This document shows positions 43,182 through 55,000 of a stretch of DNA of 64,000 nt, one piece after another. Under the pieces are notes generated by a model. It ran no database searches, had not been told where the DNA came from, and saw only the letters and a program-made list of their open reading frames with translations. Source of the stretch: a virus; the IMG/VR virus record IMGVR_UViG_3300033273_000282, positions 62,001 to 126,000 of that record. The stretch is one strand, 5' to 3'. A program made the position numbers and the translations under genes. Each line of letters begins with the position of its first letter. Positions within the stretch are counted from its first letter, which is position 1.

Positions 43182-43362
43182 AGTCAACAACACTCAGATC
43201 GTCATTGATCTCAAGCAAAAGCGTAAAGGTGTGTATTGGTCTTATCAAGACACCCCATATAACTATGGACCATTCAAGAGTGACCAACAAGCCCTGAATG
43301 ATGCTAAACTCTACTCCCAGTATGGAACAACAAATAAACTCCTCATTCCTGAATCCAAGTAA
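43165..43362 (+). CDS. small protein
   Basis: 65 residues (KHQFEVNNTQIVIDLKQKRKG, then WSYQDTPYNYGPF). Overlaps its neighbours. Unknown. Confidence 0.62.
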   Translation: MKHQFEVNNTQIVIDLKQKRKGVYWSYQDTPYNYGPFKSDQQALNDAKLYSQYGTTNKLLIPESK

Positions 43363-43942
43363 AGTAGAGCCACGCTTACTTGTACTCAAACGGTTCAATG
43401 ATCAGATCAGAAAGGAGTTTGACAAAGCATTACCTAATCTAGAGTTTAGAGACTTTGCTTCCTATCAAGAGAACTATATCTCTAAAGAAGGCAAGGGATT
43501 TCCTATACTAGAGAAAGAGTACTATCAGGCACCACAAAGAACAACAACGAATCCTAGTTGGTGTATTGCTCCGATCCTATACAACAGCCAACGCTATAAA
43601 CGTAATAGCGTACTGATGCCTAAACTAACCAAGATGATTGAGTTCATTGGTCATACCACATATGCTGGTATTACTGTACTCGATCCTGGCTATGGATTAG
43701 ATTGGCACTATGATGATGACCCATGTGAAGGAGTCATCCAATTCAGATCTTTCTATAATATCTCTACTGACAATGGTACATTCCTAGAAGTACAAGAGAC
43801 AGAGAAGAGAGTCGTAAGAAAGTATTTCATGGAGTCAGAGTATATGATCTTCAGAGCAAAGAAGAAACATAGAGTGTACAATGAGGGTAAGGCTCCGCGT
43901 TATTCTGTGGTGATAGATGTACTCAAACAACAGTTAATCTAA
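43322..43942 (+). CDS. 2-oxoglutarate/Fe(II) oxygenase (fourth of four)
   Basis: 206 residues from ATG 43322 (43298 is an alternative, overlapping the previous gene more). H129-Y-D131 in GLDWHYDDDP, H183 in KKKHRVYN and R193 in RYSVVIDV form the HxD...H...R set of aspartyl/prolyl-hydroxylase-type enzymes. It is unlike the other three in order and spacing, so a different origin is likely. It is the last gene before the DnaA-box array. Confidence 0.8.
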   Translation: MEQQINSSFLNPSKVEPRLLVLKRFNDQIRKEFDKALPNLEFRDFASYQENYISKEGKGFPILEKEYYQAPQRTTTNPSWCIAPILYNSQRYKRNSVLMPKLTKMIEFIGHTTYAGITVLDPGYGLDWHYDDDPCEGVIQFRSFYNISTDNGTFLEVQETEKRVVRKYFMESEYMIFRAKKKHRVYNEGKAPRYSVVIDVLKQQLI

Positions 43943-43949
43943 ACAACCC

Positions 43950-44003
43950 TGTGGAAAACCCTGTGGAATCTGTGGAAAAACCTGTGGAAAACTCTGTGGA
44001 AAA
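43950..44003. repeat. array of five DnaA-type boxes
   Basis: TGTGGAAAA occurs at 43950, 43971, 43983 and 43995 and a near copy (TGTGGAATC) at 43962; on the other strand this is TTTTCCACA, which fits the DnaA consensus TTWTNCACA and is the form I recall from Synechococcus origins. Spacing is 12, 9, 12, 12 nt with all boxes in one orientation. No coding frame explains the array. See Findings. Confidence 0.85.
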
Positions 44004-44029
44004 AAATGTATTAAAAAATGTGTTTGTGT
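44000..44029. other. AT-rich stretch beside the DnaA boxes
   Basis: About 30 nt with poly-A and TTAAAAAATGTGTTTGTG, no gene. Possible DNA-unwinding element of an origin. Confidence 0.5.
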
Positions 44030-44050
44030 GAGCTAGTCGGCGGAAAGGGA

Positions 44051-44084
44051 TGGGAATGTCTGGGAATGTCTAGGATTGTCTAGG
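44051..44084. repeat. 10-bp iterons
   Basis: TGGGAATGTC, TGGGAATGTC, TAGGATTGTC and TAGG in exact 10-nt register, i.e. on one face of the helix. Typical of protein-binding iterons. Confidence 0.75.
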
Positions 44085-44154
44085 TGCCTTTGGGGCTTAG
44101 CACGCAACCTATCGAAAGTCAACCACTCGAAGTACACTTTGAGAACTGTCACAG

Positions 44155-44188
44155 AACCCTCCGAAACCCTCCGAATTGGCTGTATAAT
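44155..44188 (+). promoter_or_regulatory. direct repeats and -10 before the KTSC-like gene
   Basis: Two tandem AACCCTCCGA copies (44155-44174) are followed by TATAAT (44183-44188), with no -35, suggesting activator-dependent initiation. The leader holds AAGGG 8 nt before TTG 44216. Confidence 0.6.
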
Positions 44189-44215
44189 TACAGAGTAATC
44201 AAAAGGGATCAAACC

Positions 44216-44503
44216 TTGGCACCACGAAAGAAAAAAGCAACTCCGCCGAAAGCTGCCACAATTGTGAGTCCTGTTACTTTTGATGTAAAAGAGTACAGCA
44301 CAGCTATTGACACCATTTCGGTAGACTCTGAGAAAGTTAGTGTAACCTTCGCAAGTCAAGAGAAAGTGTATGATTATACTTTCTCAGGGGATTTGAAAGA
44401 ATTTGTTGAAACCCTTGAAAAGTATACAAAAGAGCAGCATTTGTCTCTTGGTAAGTATTTCAATGGTTTGGTGAAAGATGGTAGTCTTTCTCAAAAAGTA
44501 TAA
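44216..44503 (+). CDS. KTSC-like small protein with basic tail
   Basis: 95 residues starting at TTG 44216, chosen because AAGGG and a -10 lie just upstream. A basic N-terminus (APRKKKATPPKAAT) precedes a segment with VSVTFASQEKVYDYTFSGD and LSLGKYFNGLVKDGSL, which fits the KTSC pattern (VxF...YxY...SxGxYFN). KTSC domains occur in nucleic-acid-associated proteins, with unknown function. Adjacent to the DnaA-box locus, so a replication or binding role is possible. Confidence 0.6.
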   Translation: MAPRKKKATPPKAATIVSPVTFDVKEYSTAIDTISVDSEKVSVTFASQEKVYDYTFSGDLKEFVETLEKYTKEQHLSLGKYFNGLVKDGSLSQKV

Positions 44504-47469: not shown

Positions 47470-47931
47470 ATGCTTTTTCATAGGATCCCTATTTTCAAAA
47501 TTTTTTCCGAGAAAAAATTCCGAGTATACCTTTTTGATAACCCCAAGGAGAGTCATTCCGAGATTATCCGACTGTGTATCGCAGACTGGCTGGATGGTCG
47601 GTTAGACTGTTTTGCGCCCGCCCATGTCCATTGGAGTAAGTCCGACACAGGCACATGGCTTGCTGTTGCGGTGAGTTCCAAGCGTATTGGGGTAGACATT
47701 GAAACAATGCGAGAGCGCAACTATGAAAAAATTTCAAAAAGATTCTTTGACCCATCCGAGGTTACCGACGATATAGAAAAGTTCTACATAGAATGGGTAA
47801 GGAAAGAAGCGTACTGGAAGAAAGCTAAAAAAGGTATCGGAGGGCGCTTAGGGGTTGCTATTCCAAAAGGTCACGGTATAATTACATTAGAGGGATTACC
47901 CGACAACCTTGCTGGAGCAGTTTCACTATGA
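47470..47931 (+). CDS. Sfp-type 4'-phosphopantetheinyl transferase
   Basis: Transfers phosphopantetheine from CoA to a carrier-protein serine, making holo-ACP. 153 residues. Key features: GVDIE at 74-78 (Mg-binding Asp76/Glu78), then FYIEWVRKEAYWKKAKKGIG at about 105-124 with the diagnostic W-x2-KE-A-x2-K (K112-E113-x3-K117). Upstream HVHWSKSDTGTWLAVAVS fits the usual HxS/W substrate segment. Compact compared with Sfp (224 residues). The gene is AT-rich against its GC-rich neighbours, suggesting separate acquisition. The phage's ACP at 19525 is the obvious substrate. Confidence 0.88.
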   Translation: MLFHRIPIFKIFSEKKFRVYLFDNPKESHSEIIRLCIADWLDGRLDCFAPAHVHWSKSDTGTWLAVAVSSKRIGVDIETMRERNYEKISKRFFDPSEVTDDIEKFYIEWVRKEAYWKKAKKGIGGRLGVAIPKGHGIITLEGLPDNLAGAVSL

Positions 47932-48325: not shown

Positions 48326-48973
48326 ATGGCAACGTTATCAAAATCATCATTCAATGACGCCACGATAGGTGTACCATTCAGTGATTCCATTACTATTATT
48401 CCAGAAATCTGTACTGGTACCACTCTAGAGGTGTTTGTGTCAGTATCGATGACTTCGGTATCACCATCAATACCTACTGGGATCGAGCCTGGGTTGTGCC
48501 CAGGTTTTCCTGTAGGTGGATTAACATACGTACCTACAGAAACTCCTCTTAGTACCAGTCCAATATTGACCATCAATGGGACGTTTAATGAAACGTACTT
48601 TGATGAGCGTGAGTGGGAGTACAGGGACGATACAACAGGTAAGAGTATCCATACCCCTATCATTGAGTTAGAGTCTACTGAGAGCGACGGTGGACGTATC
48701 TACAACGTCACTAAGAACAGTGCTGCCAATCCATACAGTACAGGTGGTCAATTTGAAGATGAGATTCCAGATCCTTGCGACACTCTGATCAGATACAAGC
48801 CTGACTTCAGGTCACAGAGGGTTGTGACATATACATATACAGTGAACCTGCTCTGTGCGGGTGCTCCATTTACCCAAGTATTCAATATTCCTCATACTAT
48901 CCTGAATAATTGGGATCTAGGGCGCGATAAAATGAAAGATATCCTAGCAAACAAGATTAGGTACGGTACGTAA
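48326..48973 (+). CDS. virion-associated protein before the PAAR tip
   Basis: 215 residues, strand-rich with Thr/Ser/Pro, containing several cysteines (CTGTTLEVFVSV, PGLCPGFPVGG, PDPCDTLIRY). The C-terminal helix ends WDLGRDKMKDILANKIRYG. Overlaps the PAAR gene by one base, so it is probably a spike- or baseplate-linked component. No family recognised. Confidence 0.7.
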   Translation: MATLSKSSFNDATIGVPFSDSITIIPEICTGTTLEVFVSVSMTSVSPSIPTGIEPGLCPGFPVGGLTYVPTETPLSTSPILTINGTFNETYFDEREWEYRDDTTGKSIHTPIIELESTESDGGRIYNVTKNSAANPYSTGGQFEDEIPDPCDTLIRYKPDFRSQRVVTYTYTVNLLCAGAPFTQVFNIPHTILNNWDLGRDKMKDILANKIRYGT

Positions 48974-52046: not shown

Positions 52047-55000
52047 ATGGCAGTTGAAAGGTCATCTTGGCGCGTAGCGTCTTGGCAGACTCCCTCCACC
52101 CAGGTGGGAGTCTCTCCAATTGATGCTACAGTCTCACCTGAGGTTAAAGACAGGATATCTGATAGAGTTGAGGAATTCTTACCCCAATTCATCAGAGAGG
52201 ATTATCCTGATTTCATTCAGTTCCTGAAGTATTACTACAGGAGTCAGGAACTGAAGGGTAACCCCCTGGACATCATTGGGAACTTTGATGACTACTATAA
52301 TATCGACAATCTTAATGATCTTGTCGAATCTACCGTCACCTCTGGTTCCGTAAGCATTGATGCGTCTATTATTGACGTACAGAACACTAAGGACTTCCCA
52401 TCTGAGGGTTTGATCCTTATTGACGAAGAAATTATATACTACAGAGAAAAAACTAACACTCAGTTTAGAGGGTGTGTTCGTGGCTTCCATGCGACCACGA
52501 ATATTGGTCTAATTAAGGAATATACGTTTGCTGAGTCTGAACCAGCAGAACATACGTTCCAATCTGAGGTAATTAACCTCAATAACTTCTTTGCGCTGTT
52601 TATTCTCGAAAGATTCAGAACTCAGTTCTCAGAATCGTTCCCTAACAAGTTTGCCGACGGTATTAGAGATTCTTCGGTCACAAAACGACTGAAAGACTTC
52701 TATGCGGCTAAAGGAACCTCCAGATCTTTCAAATATCTGATGAGGGTTCTCTTTGGTGTAGAATCTACCATTCTATATCCAAAAGATAGAATTTTCAAGC
52801 CATCTGATGCTTACTATAGCACCAGAGAGATTATTCGCGCTAAAGCCATCTCTGGTAACCCTGTAGAACTTACAGGGGAAGTTTTGTACCAAGATGCTGA
52901 CCCAAATGATCCAAATGTAGGCAATGCCCGCATTTACGTTAAAACTGTTGTAGAGGTTTTCACCGAAGACGGTAAAATCTACGAATTGGATGTAGATACC
53001 GAAAATGGCACTGGATCCTTCACCACACCTTACAAAACTATTCTTGCTGAAGATACCAGCTCAAACTTAAGTCAAGATTTCATTACTGTTGACTCCACAC
53101 TTGGTTGGCCAGAGACTAAAGGAAGTTTCCGAATCAATAATGAAGTCTTTGAGTATGACGAGAAAACTGTTACACAATTCCTTGGTGTAACCCGTGCTAG
53201 ACAAGATACTCTAGCAGCTAACCATCTTGCTGGTTCTGAGGTTATCTCTGCCTTTGGTATTTACGGTTATTCCAATGTAGATGGCAGTAGAATTGATATT
53301 GCTGTATTTGGCGGCACTAGAGGTGTCAATCTGACCAATGGAGGCAAATATTACGTACAAGACTCTAAAGTCACTACTCCTGCCGCTCCTGGCTTCGATT
53401 CACTCGATCCTATCTGGAGTTCCTTCATTTACAACGTTAGAAAGCTTCTGACGGGTACGAAGATCGAACTTTCTTCTCCAGACTCCCAAGGAAGAGTAGA
53501 AGCACTGATCACAACCTCCAAACCCCATGGTTTGAGACGTGATGACAAAGTGGTCGTTCTTAATGCTCCAGAAGACGTTTACAACAGAGAGTTTATTGTT
53601 GTTGGTACAGCAAACGATACTCAGTTTACTGTGCGTCTCCCAGTCATTCCTATTGCTGGTGTAAACGTTGATTTCTTAGTAACTAGAGAATTTGCGAAAT
53701 CTAGTTCTACAGACACAAGTATTAACCTGAATATTAAGGATGTTCCCGCAGACATCCAGAATACTTATAGATCAGATACCCACGCTATCGTAGCGTCTTC
53801 TGGTTTGCCAAGCCATCAAATTGGTCCATTCGCCCAAGGTATTGACCTTGATCCTGGCAACCAACGCTATCTGAAGCGTATCCCACTGACTACACTTACA
53901 AAATCGACAAAAACCCCAACTCCAGTTGGTCAAGTCGGTATTGGTGTTAATGGTGTACCATTTTTCTCATATAAGTCGGAAGACTTCCGACTTTATGGTG
54001 GTGTTAAAGAAATTAGCGTAATTAACGCTGGTGATGGTTACGACATCACCAATCCCCCTATTGTGGAGTTTGAGCAACTTTGGAAACCAGGAACTAACTA
54101 TTTCCTCAACCAAAGAGTCCGCAATAGCGTAGGTAACAGATATAAAAACCTTGGCAGTGGTAAATCCGCAGAACGTGGAACTGAACCCACTGCTACTGAC
54201 GGTAGCCTTACTGTAGACGGTTCCTGCCTTTGGGAACTTGAGGGTGTCTCTGCCGAGGCAACTGTTTCGGTTTCGGGTCGAGTTTTTGCGATTAACGTAA
54301 CAAATGGTGGTCAAAATTATACCACTGCTCCTACTGTCTCTATTAGTGGTGGTAACCCTACGGTTCAGGCAGCTGCTACTGCCACTATTACTTCTGGCGT
54401 GGTCACTGCTATTAGTGTCACTGCTGAGGGTTCTGGATACACTAGCGTCCCAGTTGTCACTCTAAGTGGTGGCGGCGGTAGTGGTGCTACAGCAGAAGCC
54501 GTTGTTCGTGGCGGTCTGGAAGCAGATGGCATTACTATTACAAACCCAGGTTCTAACTATTCAGAAAGACCTTCTATCACTCTGATTTCTGGTACAGGTG
54601 CTGTAGCATATCCTTCCATTGTTAATGGGAAGATTGCTTCTATCATTCTGACATATGGTGGTAAAAACTACTATGGTCCTCCTGACGTTATCATTACTGG
54701 TGATGGTGTAGGTGCTGTGGCATTTGCTGAGATTGATTCTAATACACAGCAAGTTACTTCTATTAGAGTTACAAACGGTGGTATTGGATATACCGCTGGT
54801 AAAACATTTGTAGATATTGTATATCCTGGTACTGGCGCTTCTTTCCAAGTAGAACTGCCCATCCTCAACTATAACAAAGCCGCAACTCCAGAAGAGTTTG
54901 GATTGACAAGTGCTCAGATGACTGCGTACAAGATTGCTGATGCTGCCAGTGGCGTTTCCATTAAAGGTGCCAACTTTGCCGTATATGGCGGTGAATATGG

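Follow-up and report, generated by a model that had tools for sequence, protein, structure and literature searches.

A candidate DnaA double-box array within a conserved non-coding control element of T4-like cyanophages

The box array and its surroundings

The window, i.e., the entire 64-kb stretch of DNA analysed, carries a short array of repeats in the gap between two genes, upstream of a series of further short motifs and a promoter (Table 1). Four perfect copies of TGTGGAAAA in one orientation span 54 nt and, together with the near copy TGTGGAATC, form a five-box array with steps of 12, 9, 12 and 12 nt, exactly as a preliminary description of this DNA had placed them. On the minus strand TGTGGAAAA reads TTTTCCACA, the cyanobacterial DnaA box, which matches the consensus TTWTNCACA; the fit to DnaA proposed in that description is borne out, and the 2-3 bp spacing rule of DnaA double boxes is obeyed as well. 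Its further claim that no gene overlies the plus-strand array also holds, with 43943-44083 covered by no listed ORF of at least 30 aa. Across the window the consensus is not over-represented (6 matches as against 6.7 expected); four of these six fall inside the 54 nt, a cluster with a Poisson estimate of 2e-7 per window. As a feature of the DNA, the array is real.

The AT-rich run, the paired AACCCTCCGA and the TATAAT hexamer were likewise found at the places first given for them. The 10-bp iterons of the preliminary description are present too, but they fail as a conserved part of the locus, being missing from its nearest relatives, the IMG/VR contigs L084 and L085. These carry nearly the same locus, with neighbouring proteins 94% and 98% identical; the boxes and the AT-rich run are retained there, as is the segment between 44096 and the promoter, but the TGGGAATGTC iterons are not. 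At the -35 position, the window and its relatives display either TTGACA or a 10-bp ACCCTCNGAA-like direct repeat, which suggests two activation modes of the promoter. Farther downstream, a 4'-phosphopantetheinyl transferase-like gene (PF01648, phrog_23098; 47470-47931) lies near a GC-rich stretch, with about 55% GC at 45-48 kb.

Table 1. Features of the array locus, in window coordinates
Feature	Position	Strand	Remarks
Upstream gene, aspartyl/asparaginyl beta-hydroxylase-like (PF05118)	43298..43942	+	Not a conserved neighbour
Four perfect TTTTCCACA boxes and one near copy, probable DnaA double boxes	43950..44003	-	Conserved in relatives
Perfect boxes	43950-43958, 43971-43979, 43983-43991, 43995-44003		
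Near copy	43962-43970		
AT-rich run AAAAAAATGTATTAAAAAATGTG adjoining the array	44000..44022	none	Aligned in relatives; low duplex stability
10-bp direct repeats, TGGGAATGTC x2 and TAGGATTGTC	44051..44080	+	Local to the window phage; absent from L084/L085
Conserved core CTTAGC-N16-GTCAA	44096..44122	+	Shared with relatives
10-bp direct repeat AACCCTCCGA x2 at the -35 position	44155..44174	+	TTGACA instead in some relatives
TATAAT, -10 of a sigma70-like promoter	44183..44188	+	
Downstream gene, small KTSC-like protein (phrog_4357)	44216..44503	+	TTG start

The window comes from a virus record of 200,309 bp, in which it occupies 62001-126000; this record contains two T4-like structural gene sets, one Syn1/S-CAM1-like and the other P-HM1-like, with two copies of gp25 and one uvsY. 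The two sets are split between 1-60000 and 61000-200309 of the record (C1), placing the window within the P-HM1-like part; the record is probably a chimeric assembly, or else a large mosaic. Since the record is probably chimeric, a second array (C1:828-871), located in the other part, is not read as an intragenomic duplicate. The layout seen in the window is confirmed in the independent contigs L084 and L085. A Synechococcus host, as the preliminary description supposed, is not established, the window sitting in the part of the record most like the Prochlorococcus phage P-HM1.

A conserved element of T4-like cyanophages

Comparison across phages shows the array to be the left arm of a conserved, usually single-copy, non-coding element of T4-like cyanophages. 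Its shared layout, read upstream of the KTSC-like gene in named phages, consists of the boxes (where present), the AT-rich run, CTTAGC, a spacer of exactly 16 nt, GTCAA and a sigma70-like promoter, with a TGTGACA/TGTCACA-like dyad between GTCAA and the promoter in many phages. No part of the element is more regular than the promoter, and its spacing from the core is nearly fixed. A copy was identified in 28 of 30 records, S-PM2, Syn1, Syn9 and P-HM1 among them, whether by exact match, with one mismatch allowed or by profile; the pattern search, the sole search run on P-SSM2 and S-SSM7, found none in these two. Boxes are present in S-PM2, Syn1, S-RIM44, S-RIM32, S-CAM1, S-CAM3, Sf-CH3, Sf-FR1, AG-345-P14, Syn19, S-ShM2 and Syn9, and absent from P-HM1, P-HM2, MED4-213, P-SSM4, S-RSM4, ACG-2014e/j, S-CAM4, S-WAM2, S-MbCM7 and Sf-CH1b, with P-HM1 and P-SSM4 keeping the core without them. 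The more distant IMG/VR relatives of the window locus keep two boxes or none. The recurrence of the boxes in many related phages answers the scan of relatives that the preliminary description had proposed, and neither lack of conservation nor a conserved coding frame, both among the outcomes that it listed as refuting, overturned the array.

A profile of the leaders recovers one strong copy per genome in all eight isolate genomes; seven of the eight contributed their leaders to it, and the one left out, Syn9, was matched at E 3e-19. The element maps to 19.2-19.4 kb in S-PM2 (AJ630128), 58.7-58.9 kb in Syn1 (GU071105) and 52.55-52.77 kb in Syn9 (DQ149023). The promoter half alone gives weaker extra copies. 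Partial copies comprising the dyad and promoter half occur at 48393-48466 in Syn19 and 52995-53054 in Syn9, and perhaps constitute a family of co-regulated early promoters.

The element is independent of its neighbours. The upstream ones range over a 2OG oxygenase, an HNH nuclease, small ORFs and annotated tRNAs, and the downstream genes vary between phages as well, with the layout of the element unchanged. The element lies 1.6-9.5 kb upstream of gp25, which in the window is directly followed by gp6. The KTSC-like protein of the window has a paralogue at the record's other array, with relatives in 53 cyanophage records. A promoter specific to the KTSC gene is rejected, given that the element is present where this gene is undetected (Syn19, P-SSM4, S-ShM2). 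A structured RNA was also considered and dropped, as there was no Rfam match and no consensus pairing across 17 leaders; no structure was predicted for the core either. When a 2-kb piece of the window was compared with phages at the DNA level, no match was returned.

Several further observations concern the surroundings of the element. Some of the leaders lacking boxes, e.g., those of S-WAM2, S-MbCM7 and S-RSM4 (L111, L112, L211) and of L496 and L540, carry TTCTCAATA and TATTGAGAA-like inverted repeats where boxes would otherwise be, which could be a substitute binding module. In Syn1, S-RIM44, ACG-2014e/j and S-CAM4 (L106, L107, L105, L114, L110), another conserved motif, CTGCCTGTGGAAAACTTTTATTCCACAGG, which is likewise an inverted box pair, follows the start of the KTSC gene by about 700 bp; S-RIM32 (L101) has a similar facing pair. 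In S-PM2 (L113, AJ630128 19177-19333), an annotated tRNA-Asn and tRNA-Leu overlap the box array and the core, an annotation that merits a second look.

Box grammar and the probable binding protein

The prevalence of the boxes was estimated with the core pattern alone, scans that included boxes being discarded as biased. This box-blind scan yielded 107 stretches, which collapse into 53 clusters after removal of near-duplicates; boxes are found in 27 of the 53 and are absent from 26. Hence, with about half of the lineages having the core without them, the boxes are not essential to the element. In the same sample TGTGGAAAA is the most widespread upstream 9-mer, and box density in the leaders is 6.2/kb as against 0.022/kb elsewhere in the same contigs, an approximately 280-fold enrichment. 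Box and core stand together in at least 119 plus 80 contig stretches of IMG/VR, with the reverse box orientation found in 12. Tandem TGTGGAAAA pairs with spacers of 2-4 nt occur in the 30 phage records only at the element, always with 3-nt spacers, save for a single coding pair in AG-345-P14. Among 66 adjacent same-strand pairs, drawn with mixed ascertainment from 127 leader clusters, 45 recur at 12 bp and nine at 11 bp, so that 54 have spacers of 3 or 2 bp. Of the variants one base away, TTATCCACA, which is the classical bacterial DnaA box, occurs most often, with others differing at positions 1, 2 and 6. Additionally, inverted boxes precede the array by 13-14, 23-24 and 30-36 bp, i.e., in one-turn steps, with a best period of 10-10.5 bp (p of about 0.015 for distinct distances).

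The tandem spacers of 2-3 bp, the identity of the commonest variant and the facing boxes in helical phase make host DnaA the likely binder of the array. Tandem TTTTCCACA copies have been footprinted in vitro with domain IV of Cyanothece DnaA (PMC4674748), and in vivo E. coli DnaA prefers box pairs 2-3 bp apart, a single added bp greatly reducing binding (PMC11317965). The box-binding domain of DnaA is encoded in all ten picocyanobacterial genomes tested. The cyanobacterial oriC beside dnaN (Synechococcus PCC 7942, Anabaena PCC 7120, Cyanothece 51142) shares with the phage locus the TTTTCCACA boxes, a close tandem pair, an AT-rich neighbour and an intergenic position (PMC4674748). In contrast, the phage element has neither dnaN nor dnaA beside it, keeps its boxes in a 12-bp register, and joins a putative DnaA site to a phage core and early promoter. 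The double boxes of E. coli (e.g., purH, polA, DARS2, mioC) similarly comprise two tandem boxes with 2-3 bp between them (PMC11317965), whereas the phage locus has TTTTCCACA instead of TTATCCACA and up to four boxes. Taken at the level of sequence, the locus would be a DnaA double-box array inside a phage-specific control element.

It is improbable that the resemblance to DnaA boxes is fortuitous and that some other protein, such as a phage-encoded initiator or regulator, binds them. Such a binder would suit the lack of tandem TGTGGAAAA pairs in the ten host genomes searched and of any box within one mismatch ahead of dnaN in Synechococcus WH7803. It would also suit the fact that several Prochlorococcus phages are boxless even though a perfect TTTTCCACA is present at three of the four dnaN loci inspected in Prochlorococcus. 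However, the sequence, the 2-3 bp spacer rule and the commonest variant all agree with DnaA, and no phage gene accompanying the boxes came up in a search that was not systematic. Finally, the notion that the array encodes a C-terminal PVEN-type peptide repeat (12 nt being four codons) rather than a DNA site, prompted by the arrays of L002, L086 and L087, which close a long ORF in its reading frame, and by the AG-345-P14 pair, which encodes KPVEKPVEN, is contradicted by the frames, given that at 13 of 16 loci the GTG-GAA frame stays open for no more than 46 codons, and further leaves the differing upstream genes, the inverted boxes and their helical phasing unexplained.

Replication, transcription or titration

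With host DnaA as the likely binder, the element is best described, at a little short of an even chance, as a conserved non-coding DNA control element, the left arm of which, where present, is a putative host DnaA site that may serve the start of phage replication. Replication initiation as its purpose is the leading reading, though it too falls short of probable. It is favoured because the element is usually single-copy, intergenic and neighbour-independent, sets boxes beside AT-rich DNA, includes a promoter and has a position like that of T4 oriE. The AT-rich run next to the boxes is an oriC-like candidate unwinding element; in seven of eight genomes it ranks within the lowest 0.01-2% for duplex stability.

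Under this reading, cooperative binding of host DnaA to double or triple TTTTCCACA boxes set 3 bp apart, and in many lineages also to a facing box in helical phase, would bend or melt the adjoining AT-rich run. Deformed in this way, the DNA could aid initiation by the host polymerase at the sigma70-like promoter some 130-230 bp off, and either the melted DNA or the RNA made there might then prime the phage's own replisome, much like the R-loops at T4 oriF/oriG. By extension, marine T4-like cyanophages might share one conserved origin, which many lineages fire or time via DnaA at helically phased double boxes, others having swapped this module for different repeats; we regard this as possible rather than probable. 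Against a replication role stand the boxlessness of about half of the lineages and the unremarkable AT-rich run of Syn19, whose duplex stability ranks at 10%. T4-like phages also have their own replisome and helicase loader, and the AT-rich run flanks the boxes on the side opposite to that taken by the DUE of E. coli with respect to box R1. Near the element, six of eight genomes show a change in GC skew; as the change is a cumulative maximum and the genomes are syntenic and non-independent, it is ambiguous as an origin signature.

The T4 origins offer a partial parallel. Like T4 oriF and oriG, which are R-loop origins, the element joins a promoter to AT-rich DNA in a T4-like phage (PMC3016281). 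Unlike them, it has DnaA boxes, is common to phages with diverged gene content and would form an R-loop only putatively; its promoter is sigma70-like by its -10, with TTGACA in several phages, rather than a MotA-dependent middle promoter. Cyanomyoviruses lack motA (PMC2984593). T4 oriE, 1.7 kb upstream of T4 gene 6, shares the map position upstream of gene 6 and reported repeats in 12-nt steps (PMC3016281). However, the T4 repeats of that stretch lie in gene 5 and are unlike DnaA boxes, there is no tandem DnaA pair in the T4 genome and no core match in the T4 stretch searched; homology by sequence was not found, and the likeness is a positional lead only.

The strongest rival to a replication start is control of early transcription, whereby array-bound DnaA would activate, repress or time an early unit starting near 44190 and running towards gp25, with no role in replication. 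The regularity of the promoter and its near-fixed spacing from the core speak for it, as do the promoter-half copies elsewhere in these genomes and the known action of DnaA as a transcription regulator at double boxes (PMC11317965). Nonetheless, it is rather unlikely: the distance from the boxes down to the -10 is 130-230 bp and that to the core varies over 10-101 bp, with no clear helical phasing of array to core, and the downstream genes differ between phages. Less likely again is titration, with multiplying phage copies soaking up host DnaA and so halting new rounds of host chromosome replication. High-affinity-looking double boxes on many-copy DNA, dispensable to the rest of the element, would be apt for this, but a decoy needs no fixed place, orientation or AT-rich neighbour, whereas the boxes keep to the core in one prevailing orientation (at least 119 stretches versus 12), and there are only 2-5 of them per genome. 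This fixed place and polarity argue against a pure datA-like decoy, and titration fits the fixed architecture less well than DnaA control of early transcription does. Accordingly ranked, a replication start is the leading reading, ahead of DnaA-controlled early transcription and titration.

In the literature searched, no paper joins cyanophages with the DnaA box. A single theta origin for Syn9, as a prediction only, is cited in PMC2984593, and this prediction might already point to the place of the element. The element provides a precise place to test how T4-like cyanophages start replication, in cultured isolates such as S-PM2, Syn1 and Syn9. The presence of the array suggests that these phages may recruit or monitor host DnaA early in infection. 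DnaA dependence differs among cyanobacteria; if DnaA is indeed recruited, the cell cycle of the host and its dependence on DnaA would bear on when the phage replicates or transcribes its early genes.
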